A stretch of DNA of 64,000 nt from assembly GCA_005893275.1 (NCBI GenBank), contig VBOW01000013.1, positions 1 to 64,000 of the forward strand. Direction: 5' to 3'. Below are positions 38,799 through 61,275 of the stretch, piece by piece. The notes beneath the pieces were generated by a model. It was given only the letters and a program-made list of their open reading frames with translations. It did no database searches and was not told where the DNA came from. The number at the start of each line of letters is the position of its first letter. Position 1 is the stretch's first letter. Position numbers and translations under genes: made by a program. The DNA is from Candidatus Eisenbacteria bacterium (lineage in GTDB: Bacteria > Eisenbacteria > RBG-16-71-46 > SZUA-252).

Positions 38799-39941
38799 TC
38801 AGTTACAGTCCCACGCCCCGTTGATCCTCTTGGCGATCGCGCCCGTTCCGCTCCCCGCACACGGAGTAGCCTTCGTGCAGTCCGAGCAATAAATGATTGT
38901 CCCGTTTGGGCTCCCTGAGAGAACGTTACCCAGATTGGCGAACGTGCTGCCGGTGGAATGGATCGCACCTTCAACCTTGAGATTTCCAGCTCCAGTTCCG
39001 GAGCCACCGACCTCGAGGCGGTAGTAGCTGGACGGCGCTACGGCATCCCCACAACGAACACCTGGGGTACCGCTGATGCCGGTGAAAACGGCGGCGCTCA
39101 GCCCGTTCGGGCTAATGATCACCCTGGGCGTGTTCACATCGGCGATGAAGAAGTTGTTTTTATTATCCTTCTGGAACATCGGATAGGTGGTCCACGGGAA
39201 AGCATTAGATCGCCAATGTATCTGGCCTCTGGGCGCCAACGAGATAATCGGCCCCGCCCAAGTTGTCGTGTCACCCGCCGCGTACATGAGCGATTCGAGG
39301 ATCGCCAGTGTGAAGCCCCCGGCGTTAAGCGAGGGCGAATAGTAGCGGACGTTCTTGAAATTAACCCAGTTGAGAAAACTCGGGTCCTGGTCCGCGCCCA
39401 TGTCCATGCGTTTCTGCAGACCACTCTGTAGGGTGTCTCGTGAAGTGTACCAAGACATGTACGATGTCGGATTTCCGCCGTTGACTCCGGCGGCGGTGAT
39501 CGAGCCATAGGCACGGTAACCGAGATTCGGCGGGTTCCTTGCCAGCCATGAGATTTGGGTCCGGCCGTCATTCACCTTCGGTCGCAGCCCCAGCGTCGGA
39601 TCGTTTGGATTACTGGCCTTTGAAATGACTTCGAGCGTGGCGCGGCCGTCTGGTGCCGGTCCACGGGCGATCGTCCAGGCCCCCTGCGACTTCATCAGGA
39701 CGACGACGCTATCGCCAGGCGTGCCGATGTCGATCCCTGAGCATCCGGCGTTGATCTGGATGATCCCCGAAGTTCCGACATAGCTAAGAGCAGAGCTGTA
39801 TCCGGCCTGATCTCCAGAAAAGTAGCGGACGACGAAATCCCCGTTCTTCATGGCCCATAACGCACAACTGCCAGAGCAACCTAGAGCGCTACCAAACCAA
39901 ACGCTTGCTGCCATCGGTACAATGAGAATTCGTAGTTGCAT
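38799..39941 (-). CDS. Secreted protein with Cys-rich C-terminal signature
   Basis: 380 residues from ATG 39941, behind a strong purine-rich ribosome site. A signal peptide (ILIVPMAASVWFGSALGCSG) is followed by a Gly/Ser/Thr/Asn-rich beta-structured region with many Trp and Tyr. The C-terminus has the motif GTIIYCSDCTKATPC, then a Gly-rich stretch and ...RINGAWDCN. I recall this ending from large extracellular or tail-fibre-like proteins in soil bacteria, but cannot name a family. Codon use looks less GC-biased than the neighbours, hinting at acquisition. Likely extracellular; function unknown. Confidence 0.65.
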   Translation of the reverse strand: MQLRILIVPMAASVWFGSALGCSGSCALWAMKNGDFVVRYFSGDQAGYSSALSYVGTSGIIQINAGCSGIDIGTPGDSVVVLMKSQGAWTIARGPAPDGRATLEVISKASNPNDPTLGLRPKVNDGRTQISWLARNPPNLGYRAYGSITAAGVNGGNPTSYMSWYTSRDTLQSGLQKRMDMGADQDPSFLNWVNFKNVRYYSPSLNAGGFTLAILESLMYAAGDTTTWAGPIISLAPRGQIHWRSNAFPWTTYPMFQKDNKNNFFIADVNTPRVIISPNGLSAAVFTGISGTPGVRCGDAVAPSSYYRLEVGGSGTGAGNLKVEGAIHSTGSTFANLGNVLSGSPNGTIIYCSDCTKATPCAGSGTGAIAKRINGAWDCN

Positions 39942-40313
39942 TCCTCCTCCCCTTCCAATACCGGCTTGTCCCCGGCCACCCACTCTGCCCGGGGATTTTC
40001 CATTTCGTGGTGTAACGAAGGCTCCGGTGGTGGAACCGCGTTTTCATCTGGTATGAAACGTGGAGGTGAAACGAAATCGCATCGTCGAACCGACCATCCG
40101 CAGCGCAGCGGGGGCACTCAATTGTCCTCACGAAGCAGACAATCCGTCACAAGCCCGTCAAGGCAGTTTGGGGTTAGGTGACCCGACCGTCAATCTCCAA
40201 ACGGTAGCGTCGTTCGAAATCTCCTCGCCGAGGACACGCGTGACTGCTCAGACTCTGAGGGTAGTAAATCGGCTTGCGCCCCACGGGGTAGGAGTGCAAG
40301 CTTTCGCGAAGTC
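39942..40313. other. Divergent intergenic region (372 nt)
   Basis: Separates the minus-strand secreted-protein gene from the plus-strand lasso genes. It contains a perfect 13-nt palindrome CTCAGACTCTGAG (40247-40259) between weak promoter-like boxes GTGACT and TAGTAA. Frames within it show no ribosome site or family resemblance. No other structure seen. Confidence 0.5.
40247..40259. promoter_or_regulatory. Palindrome upstream of lasso N-B1-B2 operon
   Basis: CTCAGA-C-TCTGAG, a perfect dyad 54 nt before the nucleotidyltransferase start, between weak -35 and -10 candidates. It could be an operator; no regulator gene is adjacent. Confidence 0.3.
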
Positions 40314-41504
40314 ATGGACGATCTGCGCCGCCCCAAACCGCTTCGGACGTCACTCTCCGCCACGGACTCGCTTGTCTTCCGGGTGCTGCGCCTGCGTTTT
40401 CACCCGGAGGAGCGGATGGCAGTCGCGGAGGCGATCGCGTCCCTCTCCGGCGATGACCTCGAGGTGGCGCTCCGCAGAGCGCGCCGGCTCGAGGTGGGTC
40501 CCCTCTTCGCGAAGGAGCTTCTCGCGCTGGATGCTCCTGCCGAGGTCCACACAGCCGCGGCCGGGATCTACCGCGAAAACCTCGCGCGCAATCTATTCCT
40601 CAAGGCCGAGACCGACTCCTGGGTCTCAGCCTTGGAAGCAGCAGGGATTCCTTGCCGGGTTCTCAAAGGGGTGTACCTGTCGGAGCTGCTTTACTCGGAT
40701 CTCGGGGCCAAGTCCTGCGCCGACATCGATCTTCTGGTCCGGCGTGAGGATCTCGACGGCGCGATGGACGTGGCGGCCGTCCGCGGATTCCGACTGGCGG
40801 ACCCCACGTCCGGAGGTCCCGACGACACCGACGCCAAGGCGTACACGCTCGAGTCTACGGGGGACAGGCGGGTTCCATACTTCGTGGACCTCCACTGGGA
40901 GCTGGAGGTGCCGATGCTCATCTCACTCGGGCAGGAGGACTTCTGGCACGCGCCGGGTGCGCGGGCGCCCGGTGGCGCGATGTGCGATTGCGCGCCCGAG
41001 GTTCCGGCCGATCTGCTCGGAGCGTTTCTCTGCCTGCATCTTTGGCACCACAGCATGAGCCTCAAGGCGCTGGTCGACTTCGCGGCATTTGTGAGGCGGT
41101 ACGACGAGGCGATGCCGGGGGTGGAGGCACGATTCAAGCGCACGCGGGCCCGGGACGGCGTCGCTCTCGCCTTGATCCTCGTCTGCCGTGTTTTCGGCGT
41201 GCGCTCCTGCGTTCTCGATCATCGCCACCCGAAACGACTTGTTCTCCCATGGCTCGAGTCCTGCGCGCATTTATCCGTGGAGGCTCGCGGGCGCTATCTG
41301 AACGTCCTCGTCTCGCCGCTTCGGTTGGAGGGCTTTCTGCTCCCATTCGCCGCCACGGCGCGGTACCTCTTCCGGTCTGGGGCGCGCGACGGCGGCTTGC
41401 GACTGCGCGCCCGCGTGACGCGGTTCGGGAGTTCTCTGTCGCGCGCGGCGTCCGGCGGACCCCTCTTTACACAGCGGAAGGTAGATCATGCCAAGCTCGT
41501 CTGA
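40314..41504 (+). CDS. Lasso-cluster nucleotidyltransferase (NTP_transf_5 family)
   Basis: 396 residues. The family core is RVLKGVYLSELLYSDLGAKS followed by CADIDLLVRREDL, with the two metal-binding Asp residues in the DIDLLV segment, and DLHWELEVP further on. Related proteins (for example PadeN) occur in paeninodin-type lasso clusters, where a nucleotidyltransferase is thought to modify the peptide. Here it overlaps the B1 gene by 17 nt and so belongs to the N-B1-B2 operon. The nucleotide and the acceptor are unknown. Confidence 0.82.
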   Translation: MDDLRRPKPLRTSLSATDSLVFRVLRLRFHPEERMAVAEAIASLSGDDLEVALRRARRLEVGPLFAKELLALDAPAEVHTAAAGIYRENLARNLFLKAETDSWVSALEAAGIPCRVLKGVYLSELLYSDLGAKSCADIDLLVRREDLDGAMDVAAVRGFRLADPTSGGPDDTDAKAYTLESTGDRRVPYFVDLHWELEVPMLISLGQEDFWHAPGARAPGGAMCDCAPEVPADLLGAFLCLHLWHHSMSLKALVDFAAFVRRYDEAMPGVEARFKRTRARDGVALALILVCRVFGVRSCVLDHRHPKRLVLPWLESCAHLSVEARGRYLNVLVSPLRLEGFLLPFAATARYLFRSGARDGGLRLRARVTRFGSSLSRAASGGPLFTQRKVDHAKLV

Positions 41505-41769
41505 GCGCTGGAAGATCGCCCCCGAGGTGGCGCACGAATCGTTCGGGGACGCGGCAGTCGTATTGAACCTCCGCTCGGGGGTGTACTACACGCTGAACGA
41601 GGTCGCCGCCCGGGCTTGGGAGAAACTGGGGAAGCCAGTCGATCTGCCTGGGCTTACCGACGCGCTCTCGACGATGTTTCAGGTCGAGCGAAGCGTTCTC
41701 GCAGAGGATCTAGAGGCCCTGCTTACCGAGCTCGAGCGGCTTCAGCTCGTCGTGAGGGTCTGTTCGTGA
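41488..41769 (+). CDS. PqqD-like RiPP recognition element (lasso B1)
   Basis: 93 residues. It has the winged-helix RRE pattern: IAPEVAHESFGDAAVVLNLR then GVYYTLNEVAARAWEKLG, and a C-terminal helix pair. In lasso systems B1 binds the precursor leader through the YxxP motif and delivers it to the B2 protease. The gene overlaps the nucleotidyltransferase by 17 nt and the B2 gene by 4 nt (GTGA). Confidence 0.88.
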   Translation: MPSSSERWKIAPEVAHESFGDAAVVLNLRSGVYYTLNEVAARAWEKLGKPVDLPGLTDALSTMFQVERSVLAEDLEALLTELERLQLVVRVCS

Positions 41770-42242
41770 GGCTGTGGCGGATCGCGCTCGCCCTCCGCGC
41801 GCTCAGGTGGGTAATCGTCGTGGAATGGCAGCGGCGGTGGCTGGGATTCGGTGACTTGGTCGCTGGAGTCGAAAGCCGGCGGCTCGGTGCTCGATCAGCA
41901 ATCGCGGCCTCGACCGCGCGCTCGGCGGTGCGGCGCGTCTCCCACCTCCTACCGCTTCGTCGTTCCTGCCTGCGCGAGTCGCTCGCGTCGGTGGGGCTTC
42001 TCCGGAGCCTGGGTCATCCCGCGCGACTCGCGATCGGTGTGAAGGCCCCGGGAGATTCCCTCGACGCGCACGCCTGGGTGGAAGTGGATGGGAAAGCGGT
42101 GGGGGACGGGACGCGGGACTACCGCGTGCTCGCGCGTTCGCCGGCCTTTCCTTTCGGTGCCGCCTCGGGGGCGAGCAATCTTTCTAACGCACCCGATGCC
42201 GAGTCGAGGTTGCCCACTCCCGTGCGCACGGACAGCGTATAG
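41766..42242 (+). CDS. Lasso leader peptidase (B2, transglutaminase-like)
   Basis: 158 residues from GTG 41766. The McjB-type triad is visible: Cys68 (RRSCLRES), His102 (LDAHAWVEV) and Asp114 (VGDG), with the same 12-residue His-to-Asp spacing as in McjB. It removes the leader so the core N-terminus can be cyclised. The last 40 codons overlap the 3' end of the convergent kinase gene by 124 nt. All catalytic residues lie before the overlap. Confidence 0.88.
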   Translation: MRLWRIALALRALRWVIVVEWQRRWLGFGDLVAGVESRRLGARSAIAASTARSAVRRVSHLLPLRRSCLRESLASVGLLRSLGHPARLAIGVKAPGDSLDAHAWVEVDGKAVGDGTRDYRVLARSPAFPFGAASGASNLSNAPDAESRLPTPVRTDSV

Positions 42243-43060
42243 GATGGGGTGAGCCTGGCTGCCCGCGCCAGAAGTTTGAAATGCTTCCGCCGCTCGGCGT
42301 GCGACAAAACCCGCCTCGTGTAGAGGTTATCCAGAAGCCTCGTCAACGCCTCCGCTGACCCCAATTGTTTGATTCGCCAGGGCTTTCCGCGGCTATGCCT
42401 CGGGTCGAGGAAGACAAACGCGTGGATGCCGGATTGCCTCGTGACGCACCTTAGGCCCATGTCGCGAACGTCTAGGAGACATTTTCCGTCGGTGGTCGGC
42501 TCCTCAAGCGCCCGCTCGTCGCGCGTTATCAGCGCGGGATCGACTCGAATGTGCGGATTGCTTCCGGGGCACCGAGCGGCTCCGCCATAGATGCGAATTG
42601 GGACGATTTCGTCGGAAATCACTTCGAGGCCCCGGCGGGCCGATGCCAACACAAGGCTCGATTTGCCTGCGCCCGGGGATCCCAGAAGCACCACCGCCGC
42701 TCCGTTTCGCGCGAGCGCCCCGCCATGGAGAACCGCGTAGCCGCGTCGCGCGAGGACTAAAGCGAGTCCCGTGTTCACCAGCCCCGCGGTCGCGTTTCGT
42801 GCACGCCGGGCAAGGTCGATCCGTAGCGAGGTCCTTGTCACCTTCAGGAGCGCGACGCTGTCTCGGTATATCGTATGCATCCTTGGCGAGCGAGCCCACC
42901 AAACCCGGAGCGATGGTCCCTCCTGCGGTAACGGAGCCAGACCGGGGGGTTTGGGCGTCGGACCTTCCCGAATGCGGATTACTACTCCTCGATGATGCTG
43001 AGCCGCCGGCGCGCGAGAGGTGCGGAGCCGGAGCCCGAACAGACGCTTCGGGAGGATCAA
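42119..43060 (-). CDS. HPr-kinase-like lasso peptide kinase
   Basis: 313 residues from TTG 43060; ATG 42880 would give a shorter form lacking part of the N-domain. The core HGGALARNGAAVVLLG with P-loop GSPGAGKSS (127-135) and VISDE (148-151) is the HprK fold. Homologues in lasso clusters (ThcoK, PadeK) phosphorylate a C-terminal Ser of the precursor. The gene follows the precursor gene by 26 nt in the same direction. Here the precursor ends Ser-Ser-Leu, so the acceptor may be an internal or penultimate Ser. The 3' end overlaps B2 on the other strand. Confidence 0.82.
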   Translation of the reverse strand: MILPKRLFGLRLRTSRAPAAQHHRGVVIRIREGPTPKPPGLAPLPQEGPSLRVWWARSPRMHTIYRDSVALLKVTRTSLRIDLARRARNATAGLVNTGLALVLARRGYAVLHGGALARNGAAVVLLGSPGAGKSSLVLASARRGLEVISDEIVPIRIYGGAARCPGSNPHIRVDPALITRDERALEEPTTDGKCLLDVRDMGLRCVTRQSGIHAFVFLDPRHSRGKPWRIKQLGSAEALTRLLDNLYTRRVLSHAERRKHFKLLARAARLTPSYTLSVRTGVGNLDSASGALERLLAPEAAPKGKAGERASTR

Positions 43061-43086
43061 AGGGCTAGAGGCGGGATGCTATCGAA

Positions 43087-43272
43087 TCAGAGGCTGGAAC
43101 CGGTTGTGAGCAGGTCGTCAGGCGAAACACCGACGGCCTTCGTGCGGCTGAACACCGACCCTGCCTCTTCCACTTTTGGTTTGGAATAGGGGCGACCCTG
43201 CTGCGGGCTTGTTTCCGTCTTTGCTGTGGGTTTCTCTTTTGCCTGCAGCCCGTTACGCTGAAACAGTCTCAT
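43087..43272 (-). CDS. Lasso peptide precursor
   Basis: 61 residues from ATG 43272, 7 nt after GAGGAG (43280-43285). The leader (1-45) ends with the RRE-binding motif YSKPKVEEAG (Y29, P32, V34, G38) and Thr44 at position -2, the hallmarks of lasso leaders. The predicted core (46-61) is AVGVSPDDLLTTGSSL. Ala1 would link to Asp7 or Asp8, giving a 7- or 8-residue ring and an 8- or 9-residue tail. The tail lacks aromatic plug residues; Leu9, Leu10 and Leu16 are the bulkiest. It overlaps the cyclase stop by 20 nt and precedes the kinase gene. No second precursor was seen. Confidence 0.85.
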   Translation of the reverse strand: MRLFQRNGLQAKEKPTAKTETSPQQGRPYSKPKVEEAGSVFSRTKAVGVSPDDLLTTGSSL

Positions 43273-44971
43273 GATGTCGCTCCTCATTCAAAACAGCGCG
43301 GATCCATCGGTCCATTGCGACGATGCGCCACAGCGCCGGATCGACGCTGCGTCCCTGAAGCGCGTCGGCGAGCATGGGGCGCAGCCGACTCTCCTCCACG
43401 TAATCACCGAGCGATCGAACTCCATCTTTATACATCACTTCCAGCCGAGGGCCAAGATATTTTCGGAGGGTCCAGTCAAAGTAAGGACGGTAGCTTGTTT
43501 TGGGAACAGCGCTACGTAGATCGTGTGGGAGAAGATTGCCCAACGCGCGCCGCATCATGATCTTCGTATGGCCTCTGGCGAAGCGGTGGTCCAAAGGTAC
43601 AGAAACGACAAACCGGACGAGCGCCGGATCAAAATACGGGTGGCGCCCCTCGATACCGAATAAGCGCTCCAAAGTCCGGGTCCCTTCCAACGCGAGACCA
43701 ACCGGGGCTGCGTGAACGCGCTCAGCCTCACGTTCCTCGAAAAGCGCTCCGGGCAGGTGTACCCGAAGGCGATCCCTCAAGCCGGTGCGACGGGCGAGCT
43801 CGGGCCGAATCCATCCCGGAATTCGAGTCGGCCTCATGGGTAGGAATTTCGCGATGAGCGGTGTGATGCACTCGCGGACCAAGCGGCGCTGGCTGTGCCT
43901 GCGCGACAGCGCATACCACTCTTGGGCGAGCCTGACCCAGCGGAACCGCAGCACCAACTCGGCCAGATAGGCGCCCGAGGGAGTGAATATCCCGTCGGCG
44001 TCGTGTCCATCCAAAAGGACCCGGGCCCCCGCCTCTTGCGCCGCCGCATAGATTGCTGTTGCGGGCGCGATGTTGACGGTCACGATGGACGGCTCGCCCA
44101 ATCGGGTCATGAAGGAGTCCAGGTGGGATAGAGGAGAGGTGTCCTCCACTCGCACGGGACGCCAGGGAACCCCGTGTTCTGCGGCAGTGCGCATGGCAAG
44201 GCTGGTTTCGTCGCATTGCGTTAGTTCCTCGAAAGCCAATGTGAGCGCGACGCGCGGCATGCGCGAGATTGCCCCGCTGCGGGCCAGGGACGCGGCCATA
44301 CCCAGAACCCCCGAGGAATCGACGCCTCCGCTCAAGAGCATTCCTGTGGGCGACCTGTCCGCGAGCGTTGTACGTACCGCCCGGCCCAAAAGGTGACGAA
44401 AGACTTCGTCCAAGTCTTCCGCGCGGGTGCTGCCCATCCACGCGCCCGTCCAGGGGCTCCAGTAGCGTTCAACGCTGAGGCCGTCACGCCTGGCCGTGAG
44501 CACCGAAGCGGGGCTCAGGCGGAGGATGCCTTTGTGGAACGACCTACCCTCGGTGGGAATTCCTGTCGCGAGATACTCCGCGACGGCGATTTCATCGAGG
44601 CCTGGATTGGGTAGGCGTTCGACGAGCGCCGGAATCTCGCTCGCGAGGAGTAGCCGCTCGCGCGAGGCGTGGTAGTACAGCGGCCGCGCGCCGTAATGGT
44701 CGCGGTACGCGCGGAGGGTCTGGCCCTCGCGATCCCATACAGCGAAGGCGAAGCCCCCGCACCAAGTGTCGGATTTCCCGTCTGCGAGCGGCGGCGAGGT
44801 CTCGCCCGGGTAGGTGAGGGGAAGGCCGTCGAGGGGAAATACGCCATCGGGCGCCGAGGTTTCCGGCCGGAAAGTACCGGGATCGCCGGGCTCCCCTGTG
44901 CACTGGACCTTCGCCACCGATCCGTCATCCCGCAGCGTGGCTTCGAGAACTACCCCATGCGTATGCGCCAT
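43253..44971 (-). CDS. Lasso cyclase (asparagine synthetase-like, McjC type)
   Basis: 572 residues. The N-terminal part is a glutaminase-like domain without the catalytic Cys at position 2. The C-terminal synthetase domain has the ATP pyrophosphatase loop LSGGVDSSGVLG (213-224) and later GHDADGIF. It activates an Asp or Glu side chain by adenylation and closes the macrolactam over the threaded tail. It heads a C-A-K operon (cyclase, precursor, kinase) on the minus strand, with overlapping ends. No ABC transporter is adjacent. Confidence 0.9.
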   Translation of the reverse strand: MAHTHGVVLEATLRDDGSVAKVQCTGEPGDPGTFRPETSAPDGVFPLDGLPLTYPGETSPPLADGKSDTWCGGFAFAVWDREGQTLRAYRDHYGARPLYYHASRERLLLASEIPALVERLPNPGLDEIAVAEYLATGIPTEGRSFHKGILRLSPASVLTARRDGLSVERYWSPWTGAWMGSTRAEDLDEVFRHLLGRAVRTTLADRSPTGMLLSGGVDSSGVLGMAASLARSGAISRMPRVALTLAFEELTQCDETSLAMRTAAEHGVPWRPVRVEDTSPLSHLDSFMTRLGEPSIVTVNIAPATAIYAAAQEAGARVLLDGHDADGIFTPSGAYLAELVLRFRWVRLAQEWYALSRRHSQRRLVRECITPLIAKFLPMRPTRIPGWIRPELARRTGLRDRLRVHLPGALFEEREAERVHAAPVGLALEGTRTLERLFGIEGRHPYFDPALVRFVVSVPLDHRFARGHTKIMMRRALGNLLPHDLRSAVPKTSYRPYFDWTLRKYLGPRLEVMYKDGVRSLGDYVEESRLRPMLADALQGRSVDPALWRIVAMDRWIRAVLNEERHHETVSA

Positions 44972-45149: not shown

Positions 45150-47615
45150 TTGAAAACGACGCGCCCATCGATAACCCTGCCGCCCTCGACGCTTGTCTTA
45201 TCGGCAATCGTGCTTTTCCTGGCGTGCGCCCCCCTGGCGCGCGCCCAGTCTCAAGCCGACGTCGAGAAGAAACTTCAAGACACCGGCTACAAAGAGCCCC
45301 AGGTTCGCCAGAAGATCCAGGAGTCGGGTCTCACCCCGGAACAGGTCCGCCAAAGGCTCAGGGACGCCGGATACAACCCGGCGGCCCTCGATCGTTACAT
45401 GCCGGGGGGCACTGCTGGGAAGCCGACCGTGCCTGCGACATCCCAGCCCGTCCCCCCTGAAACGGCCCCGGAGCCCGAGCTCCAAGGGCCGCCCCAGCCG
45501 GAGCAGTCACCGGAGCCTCCCGCGGAGCTCACGCCTGAGAACCTCCCCGAGTTCACCAAGGAGATCCTGAGTCGTGTGCCCTCGGCCGCGCCGGTCCTGC
45601 CCTTCGGTTACGACATTTTTCACTATGCGCCTTCCACCTTCGAGCCGCTCGCGACCGGACCCGTCGATCCCGACTATCCGATCGGCCCGGGTGACGAGGT
45701 CATCGTCTCCGTCTGGGGCGATAACCAGTACACGCACGCCGCAGTCGTGAGCCGCGAGGCCACGATCTCGGTGCCCGACATCGGCCAGGTCGTCTTGAAC
45801 GGCCTCACGCTCGAGCAGGCGAAGCGTCTGATCACCGATCGGCTCTCCACGGTTTACTCTGGCATTCGCGCGCGCCGTCCTTCGACCTTCGTGGACGTGA
45901 CGCTCGGAAAGCTGCGGACGATCCAGGTTTTCATTCTGGGAGATGTCGCGCGACCCGGCGGCTACACGATTTCTTCGGTCTCGACAGTGCTGAACGCGCT
46001 CTATAACGCAGGCGGGCCGACGTCGCGGGGATCGATGCGCGACGTGCGAATCATCCGACACAACCAGCTCTACCGCCGGGTGGATCTCTACGGCTACATC
46101 CTCACCGGAAGCCGTGCCGAAGACGTCAGACTGCAGAGCGGCGACGTGGTGTTCGTGCCGCCGATCGGGAAGACCGTGGCGATCTTGGGAGAAGTGCACC
46201 GTCCCGCGATCTATGAAGTCAGACCCGAGGAGCGCTTTCATCAGCTCCTTGGACTTAGCGGCGGTGTGCTCACGACAGCTTTGCTGGATCGCATGCAGAT
46301 CGATCGGATCATTCCGTTCTCAGAGCGCGATTCACTCCCTGGCATCGATCGCGTCGCGATCGACATGCCTTTGCGCGCGATTCTAGCCGACAGCACACGC
46401 GATCCCGAGATTCTGGACCGGGACATCATCCAGATATTTCGTATAGGTGACGTTCGGAAGAACACCGTGGCGATTTTGGGATCGGTGGTCTTTCATCCCG
46501 GCACGTTCCAGATCAAACACGGGATGCGGGTATCCGATCTGGTGCAAGCTGCCGGCGGGCTCGCGTCGGATACCTATCTCGACCGAGCCTTCTTGGTTCG
46601 CACCGCGCCCGATCTCTCGAAGGGTATCCACGCCTTCAACATCGGAAAGGCGGTGGCCAAGGATCCCGAAAACGATATCGAGCTGGAAGAGCTGGACGAG
46701 GTCTACGTCGCTTCGGTCTGGGACATTCGTGACCACCACAAAGTGCGGATCGAGGGGAGCGTCCGCAAGCCGGGGCAATATGACTATCTCGACGGGATGA
46801 CGATCATGGACCTCATATTCACTTCGGGGGGTCTTAAGGAGTCCGCGTCGAAGCTCCAAGCCGAGGTCTCTAGGATCGACTCGGCGGCCATCGCCACGAC
46901 CAAGGCTGCACGGATCTACCACGTGCCGATCTCCGAGGACTACGGCATCCACTCCAAGGATTCGAGCTTCGTGCTCCAGGAGAACGACGAGATTTTTGTT
47001 CGCGAAATTCCCGATTGGCAGCTCCAGCGGAACGTGACCATCAGCGGAGAGGTGAAGTACCCAGGCGTCTATTCGCTCAAAGCGAGAGATGAGCGGTTGT
47101 CGTCTTTGCTTGTGCGGGCGGGCGGCCTAAAGCCGGGAGCCTATCCACGCGCGGCTACATTCACTCGGACAACGGGGTACGCGGGAAGGCTGGCAGTGGA
47201 CGTGGAGAGTGTCGCGCGGAATCACAAGCACCGGCACGACCTGGTACTCGAGGACGGCGATGTGATCGATATCCCCAAGGAGCCGAAAACCGTCAAGGTT
47301 GAGGGGGAAGTGGGCTCCCCCTCGAGCAGCGTGCTCTATGAGCCGGGCCGGTCCATCGGCCACTACGTGGATCAGGCAGGGGGTTACACCGAAAAATCAG
47401 ACAAGGGTCGGGTGCGGTTCGAGCTGCCAAACGGAAGGGTGAAGAAGGCCAGGAAGTTTTGGTTCGATCCCAGTCCCGAGCCGGGTGCCGTCGTGTTCGT
47501 TCCCGCCAAGCCCACTCCCGAGAAGAAGGAGACGCTGAAGGATATCGCGACGATCGTCGGCATCCTCTCGGGTGCGGCGACCACGATCATCCTGGTGCAC
47601 GAGGCCACGAAGTGA
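45150..47615 (+). CDS. Wza-type polysaccharide exporter with six SLBB units
   Basis: 821 residues, TTG start. Signal peptide to about residue 32, then two or three short helical repeats (LQDTGYKEPQVRQKIQESG and related, about 38-84) and a Pro-rich linker. The polysaccharide export domain starts at YPIGPGDEVIVSVWG (about 176-190). Six SLBB-like units follow, each opening with a G-V/E-x-x-P-G step (FILGDVARPGGY, AILGEVHRPA, AILGSVVFHPG, RIEGSVRKPGQY, TISGEVKYPGVY, KVEGEVGSP). A C-terminal membrane helix ends the protein. It would form the outer-membrane exit pore for the capsule or exopolysaccharide. It heads the operon and overlaps the Wzz gene (GTGA). Confidence 0.9.
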   Translation: MKTTRPSITLPPSTLVLSAIVLFLACAPLARAQSQADVEKKLQDTGYKEPQVRQKIQESGLTPEQVRQRLRDAGYNPAALDRYMPGGTAGKPTVPATSQPVPPETAPEPELQGPPQPEQSPEPPAELTPENLPEFTKEILSRVPSAAPVLPFGYDIFHYAPSTFEPLATGPVDPDYPIGPGDEVIVSVWGDNQYTHAAVVSREATISVPDIGQVVLNGLTLEQAKRLITDRLSTVYSGIRARRPSTFVDVTLGKLRTIQVFILGDVARPGGYTISSVSTVLNALYNAGGPTSRGSMRDVRIIRHNQLYRRVDLYGYILTGSRAEDVRLQSGDVVFVPPIGKTVAILGEVHRPAIYEVRPEERFHQLLGLSGGVLTTALLDRMQIDRIIPFSERDSLPGIDRVAIDMPLRAILADSTRDPEILDRDIIQIFRIGDVRKNTVAILGSVVFHPGTFQIKHGMRVSDLVQAAGGLASDTYLDRAFLVRTAPDLSKGIHAFNIGKAVAKDPENDIELEELDEVYVASVWDIRDHHKVRIEGSVRKPGQYDYLDGMTIMDLIFTSGGLKESASKLQAEVSRIDSAAIATTKAARIYHVPISEDYGIHSKDSSFVLQENDEIFVREIPDWQLQRNVTISGEVKYPGVYSLKARDERLSSLLVRAGGLKPGAYPRAATFTRTTGYAGRLAVDVESVARNHKHRHDLVLEDGDVIDIPKEPKTVKVEGEVGSPSSSVLYEPGRSIGHYVDQAGGYTEKSDKGRVRFELPNGRVKKARKFWFDPSPEPGAVVFVPAKPTPEKKETLKDIATIVGILSGAATTIILVHEATK

Positions 47616-48544
47616 GCGAAGGCCCCACCGGGGCCGGGACCGTAGCGAGCTTGTGGGAGCGCCGGAGGCTCCTCGCGGTGACGACGTTGGGTGCGGGGGC
47701 CGCGGCCGTCGTGCTTTCGCTTCTGCTCCCCCCGCGGTATCAAGCGGTCGTAACCATCATCCCCGCCATGACCCCGGATAGGATGTCGCAGTTCGGCACC
47801 ATGGTGGGCCCTAGTCTGGAAGACTTGGCGTTCCAGGCGAGCGTGAGGTCGGGTTCTTCCGTAATGTATCCGTCGATTGTCCGCAGCCGTCGGCTCCTGG
47901 AGCAGGTTCTCGCAATGCGATTTCCGACGGGACGCGACTTGCCGCCGCGAACGCTCATCGATCTGATCCAGCCGCGCGGGTCCGGGGCGATGCGTACCGA
48001 GCTGGCGGTCCGAGCCCTGCAGCGTCGCGTGGACGCGACCCTGGACCGCAGGACCGGGGTGCTCACCATTCGGGTGGACTCGCCCTTTCCCCCGGTGGCA
48101 TCGGGAATCGCCAACGCCCTTTCCTCCCTTCTTCAGGACTTCGTTGTTCACTCGCTCACGTCTCAAGCGGGTGAGAACCGGAAATTCATCGAAGGTCGGC
48201 TTCAGGACGTAGCCCTGGACTTGGCTCACGCGGAGGAGGAGCTCAGGCTCTTTCGCGAGCGAAACCTCCGCATCGGTAACTCGCCTCGCCTCCTACTCGA
48301 GGAGGGCCGGTTGATCCGCGGTGTTCGCGAGCATGAGGAGATCTACATTGCTCTGAAACGCCAGTTCGAGCTGACCAAGGTGCAGGAGCAGCGCGACGTC
48401 CCGGTCCTGAACGTCCTCGACGCCGCCGCCGTTCCCGTCCTTCGCAGCGCTCCGAAGCGCGTAGCTACAGTCCTGGTGGGGCTGCTGCTCGGATTCGGGC
48501 TGGGCGCTGGGCTCGTCGTAACGGCGAATTCGGCGAGGCGATGA
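47612..48544 (+). CDS. Wzz/GumC-type chain-length determinant (copy 1)
   Basis: 310 residues from GTG 47612 overlapping the exporter stop. Transmembrane helices near both ends (LAVTTLGAGAAAVVLSLLL and ATVLVGLLLGFGLGAGLVV) bracket a periplasmic coiled-coil domain. Landmarks VMYPSIVRSRRLLEQVL and LRIGNSPRLLLEE recur almost word for word in the second copy at 61476. No C-terminal tyrosine kinase domain. It sets chain length and bridges the polymerase to the exporter. Confidence 0.88.
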   Translation: MSEGPTGAGTVASLWERRRLLAVTTLGAGAAAVVLSLLLPPRYQAVVTIIPAMTPDRMSQFGTMVGPSLEDLAFQASVRSGSSVMYPSIVRSRRLLEQVLAMRFPTGRDLPPRTLIDLIQPRGSGAMRTELAVRALQRRVDATLDRRTGVLTIRVDSPFPPVASGIANALSSLLQDFVVHSLTSQAGENRKFIEGRLQDVALDLAHAEEELRLFRERNLRIGNSPRLLLEEGRLIRGVREHEEIYIALKRQFELTKVQEQRDVPVLNVLDAAAVPVLRSAPKRVATVLVGLLLGFGLGAGLVVTANSARR

Positions 48545-49344
48545 GATCGATCGAGCGCAGCGGCTACGCGATGACGGAGGATCTTGAATCGCCAGAGGTG
48601 GTCTCTGTGCTCGCCGAGATGGAGACCTTTCAGTCCGAGTTCGTCGCCGCAACGCGTAGCATCTGGACGCCCCGCTTCCCGTTTTCCGGGGAATGTCTGT
48701 ACGGCTGGAGCCGCAGGTGGGAATACCCGTACTGCTGGCTTAACCTGCCCGCTCGGCTCCCGGCCAAGGTCCTCGACGCGGGCTCGGGTATCACGTTCTT
48801 CCCCTTCTTCCTTGAGCAGAGGGGTTTCGAGGTCCATTGCGCGGACGTGCGCAGGGGGCTGAGCCGCGCGTTCGACGCGGCGAACCAGGCACTGAAATCT
48901 CGCGTTTCCTTTCGGACCCTTTCCATAAGCCGTCTCGAACAATCGGACAACACGTTCGACGCCGTGGTTTGCGTGAGCGTTCTCGAGCATGTCTCGGACA
49001 GGCTGAAAGCGGTGCGCGAAATGGCGCGCGTGCTCCGCCCGGGCGGCCGCCTCGTCCTAACATGCGACATCAGCCTCGATCGCTGCGGGAGCATCCTTCC
49101 CGAGGATTTTGCGGTCATGCTTGAGGAGCTTCGGAGCGTGCTCCTGTCCGTCTACCCCCTGGACCTCCACCGTCCGCCTGGCCTCTTGACGACGAATATG
49201 GCACGTGCCACCGAGCCATGGCGCCTCCCCTGGCGAACCCCGACGGGTTGGCTCGCCCGTGCGATCCATCGCATTCGCTTCAGCGATGAGTTTCGATCGA
49301 TCGCAGTCGTGGGCTCAGTGTGGATAAAGCCGGATCGCGTGTGA
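48541..49344 (+). CDS. Class I SAM-dependent methyltransferase
   Basis: 267 residues, ATG overlapping the previous stop (ATGA). Motif I is VLDAGSGITFFPFFLEQRGF; then FDAVVCVSVLEHVSD and ARVLRPGGRLVLTCDI, typical of Methyltransf_11. In this operon it probably methylates a sugar of the exported polysaccharide or its lipid-linked precursor, but the acceptor is not known. Confidence 0.85.
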   Translation: MRSIERSGYAMTEDLESPEVVSVLAEMETFQSEFVAATRSIWTPRFPFSGECLYGWSRRWEYPYCWLNLPARLPAKVLDAGSGITFFPFFLEQRGFEVHCADVRRGLSRAFDAANQALKSRVSFRTLSISRLEQSDNTFDAVVCVSVLEHVSDRLKAVREMARVLRPGGRLVLTCDISLDRCGSILPEDFAVMLEELRSVLLSVYPLDLHRPPGLLTTNMARATEPWRLPWRTPTGWLARAIHRIRFSDEFRSIAVVGSVWIKPDRV

Positions 49345-50828
49345 CTTCAGAGGCGCTCACGGCACTGCCGAGTCCTTTTGAGGCGCTCGGCGGTCGCGTC
49401 TCCCGAAACATAGTTTGGACGCTGGCTTCGGATCTGGTGGCACGCGGAACGTCACTAGGCCTAGCGTTTTTTTGCGCGCGAACCCTCCCGGTGGCAGGAT
49501 TCGGCCTGTTCGCGCTCACACAGAACGTGGCCCAGTACCTGTGGCTGTTTGGTGACGCTTTCGCGAACAGCGGCTATGCGGCGCGCGAGGTCGCACGGGC
49601 CGGTCCGGGGATGTCGGGGGTCGCGGGTCAGTTGTACGCAATACGGGCGGTCGCGGGGCTACTTCTGGCCCTGCTCGCTGTCGCCGTGGGAATCGCCCTG
49701 CCGGTCGGTGGAGGGGGCAGATTCCTCGTCCTGGCGACGTCGATCTATTTTCTCGCATATTCGACGTTTCCCGACTGGGTGGCGCGTGGGGTGCAAGACT
49801 TCAAAGCCCTGGCCCTTGCCAATCTGCTCACCTCCGGAACCATGGTGCTGCTTGTGGTAACGATGTTCCTCGGATCCCCGGGTCCCGCCTTGGCCTGCGG
49901 GATCTGGGCGGCTTCGCTCGTTCCTGGGACGGTTGTGCTTACCGTCGTCCTTTCGGTTCGGCACGGACTTCGGTTCCGGCCTCCCTGGGCGGGAACGGCG
50001 TGGCGCTTTCACGCATCGCGTTCCTTCATCTTCTCGCTCGGCGCTATCGGCGCGATGGGACTGACGCTCTTGCCCGCGCTCCTGCTCGGACTGCTGTCTA
50101 CTGCCGAGCAGGTAGGGCTCTTCGCGGCGGGTTTCCGGATCGTCACTGCGCTGGTGGGCCTGGGCGCGGTGATCTGGTGGCCCGTATATCCGGCCCTGGC
50201 CTCGACGGCACAGGAGTCGAAAGAGTTTCGCTCCCTATTCGAGGGATTCCTGACCGCCATGCTCACCGTTTCTCTCCCCGCCGCGCTAGGGCTGAGCATC
50301 TTCGCGGAGGAGATTGTGCACACGGTGTTCGGATCGCGATACGTGGGCGCTGTTCCGATCCTTCGCTTGATGGCTTGGTCGGTTCCGCTTTATTTCCTGG
50401 CCACGGTCTTCGAGATCACCATCCTCGCGACTGGGGGCGAGTCGAGGCGCGTTCGTGTGTACGCCACGGGAGTGGCGGTGCTCGCGCTCGGCTCGGTGCT
50501 TCTGATCCCGGCCTGGGGCGCTATGGGTGCCGCTGCCGCCCACCTGGGAGCACTCGCCGTGGCCGTCACGGCCTTCTTTGGATCCATGAGGGGCCTGGTC
50601 CGAGCGGGGTGGCTCCGGACCACGGGTAGCAGGATCGCTCTGGGAGCGGGTGGGCTCGCCTTGCTATGGATGGTGCTCCGGCAGGCGAAGGTGGTCGGCG
50701 TCTGGGGCCTTGTTTCTCTCGGAGCGATTTTTTACGTCGTCTTCGTCGTGAGATCGGGGATCTTGCCGCTCGCGTTATTCGTTCCGGCAGCCTATCGGCG
50801 CGGCGCAGACTCCCCAGGACCCGCCTGA
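49341..50828 (+). CDS. Wzx-type oligosaccharide flippase
   Basis: 495 residues from GTG 49341, which overlaps the methyltransferase stop (GTGA). It has 12-14 transmembrane helices of the MOP/PST superfamily, with TLPVAGFGLFALTQNVAQYL in the first pair and EEIVHTVFGSRYVGAVPILR in the middle loop. It should flip undecaprenyl-linked repeat units across the inner membrane. A second, MurJ-like flippase is encoded at 62485. Confidence 0.85.
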   Translation: MTSEALTALPSPFEALGGRVSRNIVWTLASDLVARGTSLGLAFFCARTLPVAGFGLFALTQNVAQYLWLFGDAFANSGYAAREVARAGPGMSGVAGQLYAIRAVAGLLLALLAVAVGIALPVGGGGRFLVLATSIYFLAYSTFPDWVARGVQDFKALALANLLTSGTMVLLVVTMFLGSPGPALACGIWAASLVPGTVVLTVVLSVRHGLRFRPPWAGTAWRFHASRSFIFSLGAIGAMGLTLLPALLLGLLSTAEQVGLFAAGFRIVTALVGLGAVIWWPVYPALASTAQESKEFRSLFEGFLTAMLTVSLPAALGLSIFAEEIVHTVFGSRYVGAVPILRLMAWSVPLYFLATVFEITILATGGESRRVRVYATGVAVLALGSVLLIPAWGAMGAAAAHLGALAVAVTAFFGSMRGLVRAGWLRTTGSRIALGAGGLALLWMVLRQAKVVGVWGLVSLGAIFYVVFVVRSGILPLALFVPAAYRRGADSPGPA

Positions 50829-50840
50829 CAGGAAGGCGAG

Positions 50841-51842
50841 ATGACCCCGTTCGTATCCATCGTTCTCTCGGTCCGGAACGAAGGGAGGTTCCTCGCTGGG
50901 ACCTTGGAGCGGGTCCTCGCCCAGGATTACCCTGCGGACAGGATGGAAATCCTGGTTGTGGACGGGGCATCGGCGGACGGTACGCCGGAGATCGTGACCC
51001 GAATGGCCGCGCATGATTCGCGACTCCGCCTATTACAAAATCCTTCGATGCACGTCGCGGAAGGTCTGAACCATGGAATCGGCGCCTCCCGTGGAGACAT
51101 CGTCGTGCGGGTCGATGGCCACTGCGCGATCCCGCCGCAGTACGTGAGCACGTGCGTCCGGCTGCTGCAGCAGGGGGTTGCGGACTGCGTCGGCGGGCCG
51201 CCCCGCGCCGTCGGAACGGGATGGATGGGCACCGCCATTGCGCTGGCCATGAGCTCTCGGTTCGGGGTTGGTGGCGCTTCCTTCCGCTACACCGAACGCG
51301 CACGATACGTGGATCACGTCCCCTTCGGCGCCTATTGGCGCCGAACATTCGATCGCGTCGGTCTCTTCGACCCCGATCTGGTGCGAAATCAGGACGACGA
51401 GTTCAGTTACCGCCTCCTCCAGGCCGGCGGCCGCATCTTCGTGGACCCCGCGATCTCCGCGGAATATTGGAGCCGGTCTACCCTCGGCGGGTTGTGGTGC
51501 CAGTACTTCGGGTACGGCTACTACAAGGTCCTCGTCATCCGGAAGCGCTGTGGGAGACCATCGTCGGTACGCCAGCTGGTGCCCCCAGCGGTCATCCTGT
51601 GCCTGCTCGCGAGCGCGGTTGCGTCGGCAGCCACGGGACGCCCTGAGCTTCTCGGGGTCGTGTGGGGAGGGTACGCAGCGTTCGTGGGTGTGGGAACCAT
51701 GGTCACGCTGATTCGACGGCGCCGATGGCAGGCGGTGTTCTTGCCCGTGGTTTTTGCGACGATGCATCTCGCGTACGGATCTGGATTCCTGACCTCTCTC
51801 ATCGTTGGGGCCCCTGGGGGTAGGCGACGCAACCGTGCGTAA
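50841..51842 (+). CDS. Family 2 glycosyltransferase (ExoA-like)
   Basis: 333 residues. GT-A fold: VSIVLSVRNEGRFLAGTLE, VVDGASADGTPEIV, VRVDGHCAIPP (DxD-like site) and RNQDDEFSYRLLQAGG. Two or three hydrophobic helices near the C-terminus anchor it to the inner membrane. It adds a sugar to the growing lipid-linked unit. The resemblance is to succinoglycan ExoA-type enzymes. Confidence 0.88.
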   Translation: MTPFVSIVLSVRNEGRFLAGTLERVLAQDYPADRMEILVVDGASADGTPEIVTRMAAHDSRLRLLQNPSMHVAEGLNHGIGASRGDIVVRVDGHCAIPPQYVSTCVRLLQQGVADCVGGPPRAVGTGWMGTAIALAMSSRFGVGGASFRYTERARYVDHVPFGAYWRRTFDRVGLFDPDLVRNQDDEFSYRLLQAGGRIFVDPAISAEYWSRSTLGGLWCQYFGYGYYKVLVIRKRCGRPSSVRQLVPPAVILCLLASAVASAATGRPELLGVVWGGYAAFVGVGTMVTLIRRRRWQAVFLPVVFATMHLAYGSGFLTSLIVGAPGGRRRNRA

Positions 51843-53157
51843 GAATGTCAGGCGGAAACATGCTCTTTTGATCGCCTACCAGTTCCCACCAGTCGGGGGA
51901 ATGAGCCCAAAGATCGCGAGGAATTACGTCGCGGCATTGGCGGGGGATGGCTACGACGTCGACGTGGTCACGCCCGCCGCCTCACCGGACCATCCCGTTT
52001 ATCGCATCGACCATTCGAGCCAGGGGCACGACTGCATCGAGGGGGTAACTCTGCACCGAACGTACCCGGGGCCGCTCTATCGGCTGGCATGTCGAGCCGC
52101 ACGGAAACCGCGGGTCGCAGCCACGCCGGCCACGCCGGCGAACGCGGATGCCGCTCGCGCGGCCTACCGCCGATTGATCCGTCCGTGGATGATTCCGGAC
52201 GGGCGCGCAGACTGGCTCCCGTGGGCCATCGCGAAGGCCACGAGTCTGATCCTGAGGCGACCCTACGACCTGCTCGTGACCTATGCCTTCCCGTACACCT
52301 GCCACTTTGTGGGCTTCGCCCTCCGACCATGGATTCGAGGCCCGTGGATCCTCAACCAGGGGGACCTCTGGTCATTCTCTCCAGGCGTAAACCTGCCGCG
52401 TTGGCGGCTCGCTATCGACCGCATGTTGGAGCGTGCGGTTCTGATCCGGGGGACCAGAATCATCGTAACCAACGACGAGATGATCGCGGGCTATCGTGAG
52501 CACTTCCCGGAAGTGCCCGAGTCCCGGTTTGCGGTGATTCCGATCGGATACGACCGGCAGACCTACGAGCGGAGCGCTCCGGAGATCTCGGCCCGCTTTC
52601 GCTTCGCGTACACGGGTGCCTTACCCGTCTACGGACGAGGCCTGTACACGTTTCTGGAGGGCCTTGCCCGCGCCAGACGGGAGGAATCGATCGATGCCGA
52701 GTGCGTCATCGCGGGCACGATGCCTCAGGAGATCCGGGACTTCGCCTCAAGACTCGGTCTCGGCGATGCGGTTGAATTCCGTGGATTCCAGCCGAGCTCC
52801 GCCGTCGCGGCTCTTCAGCTTGGAGCCCACGTCCTCGTGATGGTCGGCATGCCCAAGGGGCTGCAGGTGCCCTCCAAGGTGTACGAGTATTTTGCCGCGA
52901 AGCGGCCGATTCTTGGGGTGCGCTGCGACGAGGCGGACATCGCCGCTCGGAGCGTGTCGCGTCACAACCGGGGGCTATCAGTGCCCGACGATGTCGGGGA
53001 GGTTGAGCGTGCCATCGCCAGCCTCCACAAGATGTGGAAATCGGGATCCCTGGACCGCTCCTTCGATCTCGCGGGCGTGCCTGCCCACGACTGGGACGAG
53101 GTGGGCCGCAGGTTCTTGGCCGCCGTTCAGGAGGCAGAGCGTGCCTGGCATGCCTGA
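51835..53157 (+). CDS. Family 4-type glycosyltransferase
   Basis: 440 residues from GTG 51835, overlapping the previous gene by 8 nt. GT-B fold: N-terminal IAYQFPPVGGMSPKIARNYV and C-terminal FAYTGALPVYGRGLYTFLEG, then VPSKVYEYFAAKRPILGV with the donor-site Glu. Sugar specificity unknown. Part of the same polysaccharide operon. Confidence 0.85.
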   Translation: MRKNVRRKHALLIAYQFPPVGGMSPKIARNYVAALAGDGYDVDVVTPAASPDHPVYRIDHSSQGHDCIEGVTLHRTYPGPLYRLACRAARKPRVAATPATPANADAARAAYRRLIRPWMIPDGRADWLPWAIAKATSLILRRPYDLLVTYAFPYTCHFVGFALRPWIRGPWILNQGDLWSFSPGVNLPRWRLAIDRMLERAVLIRGTRIIVTNDEMIAGYREHFPEVPESRFAVIPIGYDRQTYERSAPEISARFRFAYTGALPVYGRGLYTFLEGLARARREESIDAECVIAGTMPQEIRDFASRLGLGDAVEFRGFQPSSAVAALQLGAHVLVMVGMPKGLQVPSKVYEYFAAKRPILGVRCDEADIAARSVSRHNRGLSVPDDVGEVERAIASLHKMWKSGSLDRSFDLAGVPAHDWDEVGRRFLAAVQEAERAWHA

Positions 53158-53216
53158 GGCAACGTTCGCGCGCGCGACGGTCGTGGGGCATCGAACGAGC
53201 GCTGGGTGAGCTGACC

Positions 53217-54227
53217 ATGGCGCACATCATTTATCTTTACCGACACATGTCGGAGTATATCCAGATTGATCTGGACCTACTTCGCGAACGGCACTCGGTT
53301 ACCGTCGTCGAGTGCGCCTCGCGCTGGCCGCACCCGCTACTACTGTTCAGGCTTGTCACGCAAGCTGACTTGGTCGTTGCATGGTTTGCCAGCTGGCACT
53401 CCTTTGTGCCTGCTGTCCTGTGTCGGCAGCTAGGGAAGCCCTTTGTGGTCTGCACCGGTGGCTACGACACTGCGCGCCTGCCCGGGATCGATTACGGGCA
53501 CCAGCGGGGCGGTTTCAGGCGTTTTGTGGCGCTGATCACCATGCGGCTCGCGGACCGGCTGATCGTAGCTTCGGAGGCGAGCCGCCTGGAAGTGCTGGGG
53601 CTAGGACTGCCTGCTCCAAAGCTCATGCTCGGCGGCCATGGTCTTGACCCCGCGCGCTATCCTGTCTCTGCGCTCCCACGGGAGAATTTGGTCGTCACCG
53701 TTTGCGGCGTCAATCGAAGCAACCTCAGGCGCAAGGGGCTGGAAGCTTTCGTGCGCACTGCAGCGTACTGTCCGGATCAGCGGTTCGTGGTGGTGGGCGC
53801 GTGGATGGATGACACCATCGTTCGCCTGCGCGCCATGGCCCAGCCAAACGTCCGCTTCACCGGATGGGTTTCACACAATGAAAAGGTGGCGTGGCTCTCT
53901 CGCGCGAGCGTGATCATGCAGCCATCGCTCCACGAAGCGTTTGGACTATCGGTCGCGGAGGGGATGCTGTGCGGTGCCGTGCCTGTGGTCACGGCAAATG
54001 GTGCCCTCCCTGAGTTGGTGGGCGACTGTGGCGTCCTCGTCAGATCGCAGGATCCGAGAGACCTTGCCGAGGGAGTGGGTCGGGCGCTCGCCCTCGGACC
54101 CGCTGCCGGTGCGCGAGCGCGAACGCGGGTGCTCGAACGGTTCAATCTCGATCGCCGACGCCGGACACTCGAATCGGTGATCTCTGGTGAACTCGGCGAT
54201 CCCCGGGGCTCGGCCTTACAGCAGTAA
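53217..54227 (+). CDS. Family 4 glycosyltransferase
   Basis: 336 residues from ATG 53217. GT-B fold: VCTGGYDTARLPGIDYG, LGGHGLDPARYPV, and the donor site MQPSLHEAFGLSVAEGMLCG followed by GALPELVGDCGVLV. It is the last plus-strand gene of the first exopolysaccharide operon and converges with the GT-C gene 9 nt away. Confidence 0.87.
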   Translation: MAHIIYLYRHMSEYIQIDLDLLRERHSVTVVECASRWPHPLLLFRLVTQADLVVAWFASWHSFVPAVLCRQLGKPFVVCTGGYDTARLPGIDYGHQRGGFRRFVALITMRLADRLIVASEASRLEVLGLGLPAPKLMLGGHGLDPARYPVSALPRENLVVTVCGVNRSNLRRKGLEAFVRTAAYCPDQRFVVVGAWMDDTIVRLRAMAQPNVRFTGWVSHNEKVAWLSRASVIMQPSLHEAFGLSVAEGMLCGAVPVVTANGALPELVGDCGVLVRSQDPRDLAEGVGRALALGPAAGARARTRVLERFNLDRRRRTLESVISGELGDPRGSALQQ

Positions 54228-54236
54228 TCCGCATCG

Positions 54237-55961: not shown

Positions 55962-56026
55962 CCGGTTTCCCGCTTCCGCGCGTCACCAGACAAACGGTGG
56001 GGAAGTGGGCGAGCAGTGGCACGCGC

Positions 56027-57505: not shown

Positions 57506-57534
57506 CCACCACTCTCAGAAACGCCCAATTTCAT

Positions 57535-57563
57535 TTGACCTGCCGTTGCTCGGTGGCATAGAA
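57535..57563 (+). promoter_or_regulatory. Predicted sigma-70 promoter of DegT/sugar-transferase genes
   Basis: TTGACC (57535-57540), 17 nt, ATAGAA (57558-57563); with an 18-nt spacer the -10 reads TAGAAA. Start near 57570. Downstream, TAAGG precedes ATG 57596, which is out of frame with the conserved protein. Confidence 0.45.
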
Positions 57564-57825
57564 AGAAGCCCGGGGGCTCATTGAGCTAAGGTACCATGCG
57601 CTCTATCGGATCCACAGCATCGACGGATCGGCAAAGCCAGGTGGGAGGGACCCCACGACGAAGACCCCAGGGGAAGGCAGCGCACCGGTTCGCCGCGAGT
57701 TCCTCGTCTTCGGCCGCCCCTTCGTCGCCGAGGAAGAGATCCGCGAGGTAGTCGACACCCTCCGCTCCGGATGGATCGGGTTCGGCCCGAAAACGCTCCG
57801 GTTCGAGGCAGACTTCGCGAGCTAC

Positions 57826-58890: not shown

Positions 58891-58912
58891 TCCACACACT
58901 GGGGGAAACGCG

Positions 58913-59611
58913 ATGGATCATCAACCGACTCTAATCGAGGCGGTGGTGGATGAGGCGGCGCTTGCGCCTGACGCCGTCCGCGGTGGTTGGTCGTGGATCG
59001 GACTGGGCATCCGAGATGTCACCGAACGGAGCCTCGCCGCGGCCGCATTAGTCCTGCTTTCACCGATCCTTCTCGCGATCGCAATAGCAATACGGCTCGA
59101 CTCCCCCGGTCCCGCGCTATTTAAGCAAGTTCGCATTGGTCTCAAAGGAAGGCCCTTCACGTTCATCAAGTTTCGGGGAATGTATATCGATGCCCTCGCT
59201 CGATTCCCGGAGCTGTACTCATATCGGTATACGCAGTCCGAGATCGATAACCTGCACTTTCACTCGGAGACGGATCCGCGGGTCACGCGCGTCGGGCGGT
59301 TCATCCGTAGCACGAGCCTGGATGAGCTGCCTAACTTCATAAACGTGGTTTGGGGGGATATGAGCCTTGTGGGTCCAAGGCCGGAGATCCCAGAGATGAT
59401 CCCGTACTACGGAACCGCAGCCGGCGAGATTCTCAGCGTCAAGCCCGGCGTGACCTCGATGGCAAAAGTCATCGGCCGCGACCACCTCAATTTCATGGAG
59501 ACCCTGGCACTAGACTTGGAATACGTGCGAAATCGCGGCTGGGCGAAGGACTTCCGGATCCTTTGTTCTACTCTGGTTCTGGTAGTGACCGGCAGGAGCG
59601 TCGGCCTATAG
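58913..59611 (+). CDS. Undecaprenyl-phosphate sugar phosphotransferase (initiating enzyme)
   Basis: 232 residues from ATG 58913. One membrane-embedded helix ([20 protein letters not shown]) is followed by the PHPT catalytic domain: [25 protein letters not shown], and the tail [20 protein letters not shown] with [13 protein letters not shown]. It is the short WcaJ/PglC-like form that loads the first sugar phosphate onto undecaprenyl phosphate, committing the pathway. Confidence 0.93.
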
Positions 59612-59624
59612 GCGTCTTCCATAG

Positions 59625-61199: not shown

Positions 61200-61275
61200 T
61201 CGGGCATTGTGCTTGAGGCACCAGCCTCCGACAACCCCGAAGTCCAGTGGGGCGGCCAAATTTGTGCCGGACCGG

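Follow-up and report, generated by a model that had tools for sequence, protein, structure and literature searches.

Does a lasso-peptide cluster whose genes are divided between both strands represent a functional system of its own kind, or a known type of cluster that was scrambled? This question is raised by positions 40314-44971 of a 64,000-nucleotide stretch of contig VBOW01000013.1 from a Candidatus Eisenbacteria bacterium (hereafter the window), which contain a complete and intact-looking six-gene lasso-peptide cluster. The plus strand carries N, B1 and B2, each overlapping the next by a short stretch; they face the minus-strand genes C, A and K, with B2 and K converging tail to tail in an overlap of 124 nt. 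The six genes are:

40314..41504, plus strand: N, a nucleotidyltransferase-fold protein of the NTP_transf_5 family, PsmN/BsfN-like, 396 amino acids (PF14907, 5.6e-33)
41488..41769, plus strand: B1, a stand-alone, PqqD-like RiPP (ribosomally synthesised and post-translationally modified peptide) recognition element (RRE), the predicted leader binder, 93 amino acids (PF05402, 1.6e-13)
41766..42242, plus strand: B2, a McjB-like leader peptidase, 158 amino acids (PF13471, 1.1e-21; NF033537, lasso_biosyn_B2, 71 bits at a cut-off of 33)
42119..43060, minus strand: K, a HprK-like peptide kinase, 313 amino acids (HprK_rel_A, 47 bits at a curated cut-off of 200)
43087..43272, minus strand: A, the lasso precursor, 61 amino acids (leader motif, Shine-Dalgarno sequence and conservation in a sister cluster; without family match)
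43253..44971, minus strand: C, a McjC-like lasso cyclase of the asparagine-synthetase fold, 572 amino acids (NF033535, 245 bits at a cut-off of 525)

We consider it probable (about 0.82) that these genes form a functional lasso-peptide cluster of a separate subfamily, distinguished by an inversion of the C-A-K block with respect to N-B1-B2. A first-pass annotation of the window had placed all six genes at these coordinates and on these strands, and the functions it proposed (RRE, leader peptidase, cyclase, precursor and two predicted tailoring enzymes) are well supported by the family matches, the precursor motif and the sister cluster described below. Its suggestion that B2 and C belong to the McjB and McjC families was borne out for B2, which scores above the model cut-off, and for C, for which the lasso cyclase is the best model, though at a score below the cut-off. 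The catalytic residues Cys68 and His102 of B2 are kept, as they are in 71 of 71 homologues, and PF13471, the family of B2, has one match in the whole genome. The best NCBIfam models for B1 are lasso PqqD chaperones, with scores below their cut-offs.

The same arrangement was detected in a second cluster, L145, located on contig 43 of the Acidobacteriota bin G224, in which the same six genes occur as C-A-K on one strand and B2-B1-N on the opposite one, so that the two blocks converge at the K-B2 boundary. L145 was retrieved by searching 396 genomes from the same phylum as an Acidobacteria record and was the single locus with a cyclase about 50% identical to that of the window. The window and L145 proteins share identities of 49% (C), 54% (B2), 44% (B1), 43% (N, 361 residues) and 41% (K, 305 residues), and the last 35 amino acids of the precursors are 60% identical (tblastn 4.5e-8). 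The L145 enzymes are the nearest homologues found; among the matches listed, cyclases elsewhere are about 30% and at most 34% identical, and the matches of N and K outside L145 are shorter or weaker. L145 differs from the window in core residues Lys7, Ser11 and Ser13, in a longer tail of K and in its neighbouring genes. Furthermore, its B2 ends at a point corresponding to about residue 126 of the window protein, so that the overlap with K amounts to only some 25 nt, whereas about 32 C-terminal residues of the window B2 extend antisense into K. Since the convergent order is identical while the proteins have diverged by about 50%, the layout is inherited and old, and a misassembly of the window was rejected on these grounds. 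Sampling the phyla to which a Gemmatimonadetes, a Rokubacteria and an Anaerolineales genome belong, as well as the class of G224, revealed no further members. The window cluster and L145 are tentatively regarded as a new subfamily of lasso clusters with two members only.

The precursor gene lies between C and K. The pattern Y-x2-P-x5-G-x5-T in a short open reading frame with a tail of 10-40 residues occurs once in the 64 kb, compared to a chance expectation of 0.08 per window (mean of 25 Markov-simulated windows). This confirms the leader motif and the Thr at position -2 that the first-pass annotation had pointed out, and the precursor as such is conserved in L145. Translation of A probably starts at the second ATG (43272, giving 61 amino acids) rather than at the alternative ATG at 43287; a GAGGAG Shine-Dalgarno sequence is located 7 bases 5' of the former, within the C gene. 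The position of this start within the end of C, where it overlaps the C stop, together with the Shine-Dalgarno sequence suggests translational coupling. The leader (...RPYSKPKVEEAGSVFSRTK) contains YSKP...G...T, with Thr at -2 and Lys at -1, and is in register with precursors near C in many related loci, where they are mostly located between C and K.

With the core boundaries set by the T(-2) rule, the window core AVGVSPDDLLTTGSSL and the L145 core ALGGSGKDALSGSGLL both comprise 16 residues and have A1, G3, S5, D8, L10, T/S11 and L16 in common. Asp7 and Asp8 of the window core lie within core positions 7-9, and Asp8 is kept in L145. The two cores point to a predicted 8-residue ring from Ala1 to Asp8, and the ring acceptor is expected to be Asp8, given that position 7 is Asp in the window but Lys in L145. 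The cores end in SSL (window) and GLL (L145), neither of them in Ser. Short cores of similar plan were found in three other clusters possessing both K and N, namely KVGTSTADGITGSGIA (L058), GPVGGTADGLTGTGGT (L055) and GGLVGTKEALTSAL (L048). In about half of the related cores listed, which stem from clusters of many phyla, position 5 is occupied by Ser or Thr; it may be a common ring modification site or reflect a structural need.

In the window cyclase the SGG-x-DS motif (S214-G-G-x-D-S219) as well as D326, D448 and K491 are kept. Its N-terminal domain is shortened: like the L145 cyclase, it lacks 16 conserved columns that are present in nearly all other homologues. In both cyclases Ala325 replaces Gly, while the ATP-site residues are kept. 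The lasso cyclase model scores 245 bits compared to 156 for asparagine synthase and 107 for the exopolysaccharide (EPS) amidotransferase. Based on these scores and on the presence of B2 and the precursor, an asparagine synthetase or an EPS amidotransferase was rejected for C. The models of the EPS/exosortase HprK-related system (TIGR04352/04353, TIGR03108) reach 47 of 200, 26 of 35 and 107 of 817 bits, all below the NCBIfam cut-offs.

In order to place the layout among other lasso loci, genome contigs were scanned with the cyclase alignment, which yielded a sample of at least 79 loci with distant homologues only, and their genes were called with profiles built in this analysis. At least 65 of these loci contain B1, B2 and C; at least 59 of the latter also possess K and at least 48 both K and N. 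The loci listed span Cyanobacteria, Acidobacteria, Rokubacteria, Nitrospirota, Chloroflexi, Rubrobacter, Mesorhizobium, other Proteobacteria and archaeal bins. The most frequent order among them is B1-B2-C-K-N, all on one strand; the one-strand order N-B1-B2-C-K was found at least three times. Scans of genome contigs and viral contigs with the single cyclase protein gave no matches, and no B2 relatives were detected in a plasmid search.

The convergent layout of the window occurs in none of the 48 comparable K+N loci listed and is shared by L145 only, which agrees with the first-pass view of the layout as unusual. However, the accompanying statement that such genes share one strand elsewhere was too strong, since N lies on the opposite strand in 16 of the 48 K+N loci, mostly in Mesorhizobium, and C lies opposite to K-B2-B1 in L077, which lacks N. 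It was also too strong to set the host lineage far apart from the groups with such clusters, the first-pass annotation having named Firmicutes and Proteobacteria as those where they were characterised. K+N clusters occur in many phyla, the bsf cluster was characterised in Bradymonas (PMC10368454), and related clusters are present in two further genomes of the host phylum. One of these, L039 (G022 contig 522, 476-4175), is a one-strand lasso cluster near nucleotide-sugar genes with the order B1-B2-K-C-A, a precursor (...YEPPAVRDLGTLSELTNGGDCGDDGGGFGGAVSC) and a shortened, very divergent cyclase. The other, L038 (G001 contig 14, 8537-12425), is a lasso-type set of K, B1, B2 and C on one strand, with no leader-motif precursor found adjoining.

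Among the loci listed, L052 (Rubrobacter taiwanensis), L112 (Dehalococcoidia) and L087 (cyanobacteria) share the enzyme set and the order N-B1-B2 with the window. They differ from it in that N-B1-B2-C-A-K lies on one strand, the cyclases are about 30% identical or less and have a standard N-terminus, and the kinase contains D-D. The related Paenibacillus plasmid cluster L042 has the order N-C-A-K-B1-B2 plus an ATP-binding cassette (ABC) transporter, all on one strand, whereas the window is convergent. As N-B1-B2-C-A-K on one strand exists elsewhere (L052, L112), a single inversion is the most economical origin. The layout probably arose when C-A-K was inverted once in an ancestor with the order N-B1-B2-C-A-K, before the cluster was present in both lineages, between which a transfer across phyla would have taken place.

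Several of the other loci deserve mention in their own right. L063 and L095 are B1-B2-C-K lasso clusters on contigs of Methanobacteriaceae and Methanothrix bins, L095 additionally containing N and a leader-motif precursor; they are either archaeal lasso clusters or misbinned contigs. In the cyanobacterial loci L092 (8734-9937), L086 (8788-10188) and L103 (3310-4144) three to four tandem precursor genes with near-identical leaders and varied cores follow C.

In relatives of the host the corresponding locus consists of a UDP-N-acetylglucosamine 2-epimerase gene, the minus-strand gene g37982, a DegT aminotransferase gene and an SLBB export gene, without a lasso cluster; the epimerase and DegT were named from sequence and not by family search. 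Some relatives have extra genes between DegT and SLBB. In the window the position of DegT is occupied by the cluster and one further gene (38802-39983), and a DegT gene at 57.8 kb was rejected as the displaced neighbour (42% identical). No B2 was found in the other genomes of the host genus or family that were searched. The locus without the cluster in relatives and the lack of B2 in genus and family indicate that an accessory cluster has been inserted into a polysaccharide locus here, with its right-hand border between 44971 and about 45131. The G+C content of the cluster (64.9%) equals that of the window (65.3%), and thus there is no sign of a recent arrival in the base composition. The gene at 38802-39983 (minus strand) encodes a 394-amino-acid protein without Pfam match, shows a deviating codon composition (G+C at first and third codon positions, GC1 0.53 and GC3 0.66) and may be part of the insertion. 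A large polysaccharide export locus extends from 45150 to 62480 and comprises Wzz-type genes at 47459 and 61476, a flippase-like protein, glycosyltransferases, DegT and a Wzi-like protein. The neighbours of L145 are also polysaccharide genes (sugar transferase, hexapeptide acyltransferase-like, DUF354).

What the two additional enzymes might do can be judged by comparison with described systems. Paeninodin (PadeA/K) and pseudomycoidin (PsmK/N) clusters resemble the window in their HprK-like kinase and the split B1/B2, and pseudomycoidin also in its nucleotidyltransferase-like protein (PMC9266682). PadeK phosphorylates the C-terminal Ser of its precursor, and PsmN is required for the attachment of a hexose to the phosphorylated Ser (PMC9266682). 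In both systems the target is this C-terminal Ser (PMC9266682), which the window core lacks. The bsf cluster of Bradymonas sediminis FA350, outside the Firmicutes, contains A, B1, B2, C, K and N like the window, and its core also lacks a C-terminal Ser (PMC10368454); the comparison covers gene set and motifs. BsfK phosphorylates Ser3 in the ring, aided by B1, and the last Asp of the motif is important for its activity (PMC10368454). The bsf cluster differs from the window in Ile at -2 instead of Thr, an ABC transporter and a kinase with D186-D187 instead of D-E (PMC10368454).

The motif of the window kinase reads H112-G130-G132-K133-S134-D150-E151. Hence, of the His-Lys-Asp-Asp motif of kinase-tailored clusters H112, K133 and D150 are kept and the last residue is Glu151. 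This D-E pair was found in the window, in L145 and otherwise only in L095, while the usual pair, present in 97% of 76 homologues, is D-D. The AlphaFold model of K (predicted local distance difference test score, pLDDT, 89) gave Foldseek matches to HprK/P and phosphoenolpyruvate carboxykinase at about 1e-6, and K shares 19% identity with the Paenibacillus cluster kinase. In N the invariant residues G119, D137-x-D139 and H194 are kept; its model (pLDDT 79) gave weak Foldseek matches to MNT-type nucleotidyltransferases, with MenT1 as the best (1.7e-3) and ANT(2'')-Ia among them.

We infer from these features that K and N modify the peptide. As the core has no C-terminal Ser, a C-terminal phosphorylation of the paeninodin type is not possible, and a residue of the ring or the middle of the tail is the likelier target. 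Positions 5 and 11, the hydroxyl positions common to the window and L145, are therefore candidate modification sites. In the proposed pathway B1 would bind YSKPKV in the leader of A. With the probable aid of B1, K would phosphorylate a core hydroxyl, with ring Ser5 or tail Thr11 as the best candidates, and N would attach a further group to the phosphate. B2 would cleave after Lys(-1), recognising Thr(-2), and C would activate Asp8 with ATP and link it to the Ala1 amino group, so that a ring and a tail of 8 residues each would result. A more specific version, in which Ser5 or Thr/Ser11 receives a phosphate-linked sugar or sugar phosphate through the altered D-E kinase and N, the subfamily is associated with polysaccharide loci and the cyclase functions despite lacking part of its N-terminal domain, is speculative, and we would sooner expect it to fail than to hold.

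Several observations weigh against a functional cluster of a separate subfamily. No product of the cluster has been seen. The cyclase and the kinase score below the curated NCBIfam cut-offs, and K departs from D-D, the last Asp of which matters for BsfK (PMC10368454), so that its activity might be weak or altered. The B2 gene has lost the stop present in L145, and L145 is assigned to its phylum through a genome bin. An ABC exporter (D gene) was not detected in the vicinity of the window cluster, and no exporter gene was seen adjoining it or L145, although the peptide may be exported by an unlinked system. Finally, the core tails LLTTGSSL (window) and ALSGSGLL (L145) contain no bulky thread-locking residue, and thus an unthreaded branched-cyclic product is conceivable.

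This last point leads to the view that the product is an unthreaded branched cyclic macrolactam, or a peptide with a surface or signalling role linked to the polysaccharide locus, instead of a classical lasso peptide. The location of both clusters among polysaccharide genes (in the window SLBB, Wzz, flippase and glycosyltransferase genes) would be consistent with it. However, this context may merely mark an insertion hot spot, the cyclase and the leader are of the lasso type, and lasso peptides with small plug residues exist. Taking this into account, we regard such a product as unlikely. An ordinary paeninodin- or pseudomycoidin-type cluster scrambled by recent rearrangement or misassembly, the layout of which would be meaningless, could explain the 124-nt antisense overlap, the lost B2 stop and the absence of the cluster from sister genomes of the genus. 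It is largely refuted by the same convergent order in L145 with its strongly diverged proteins, and the conserved catalytic residues are intact apart from the kinase Glu, which leaves this explanation with hardly any probability. Degeneration of the cluster was rejected based on the kept catalytic residues and the conserved precursor.

It seems very unlikely, too, that K and N regulate polysaccharide synthesis and stand beside the lasso genes by chance. The low identity of K to the Paenibacillus kinase, the absence of its second Asp and a core without the C-terminal Ser used by PadeK-type kinases (PMC9266682) would fit such a role, but 48 of the 65 complete loci listed, across many phyla, contain K and N next to B1-B2-C, and both are conserved between the window and L145 alongside the other genes. 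Moreover, BsfK modifies a ring residue of a core without C-terminal Ser (PMC10368454). A functional lasso-peptide cluster with an inverted C-A-K block is therefore the explanation we prefer.

The window and L145 form a two-member clade across phyla with its own layout, a shortened cyclase, an altered kinase motif and a short core. Among the loci listed, K+N lasso clusters are common beyond the Firmicutes and Proteobacteria, especially in Cyanobacteria and Acidobacteria. The pair makes it testable what NTP_transf_5 proteins attach, which residue a D-E kinase targets and what extent of the N-terminal domain the cyclase requires for ring closure. If the tentative modification scheme were true, Ser5 or Thr/Ser11 would be a tailoring site beyond those described in the cited literature (PMC9266682, PMC10368454).

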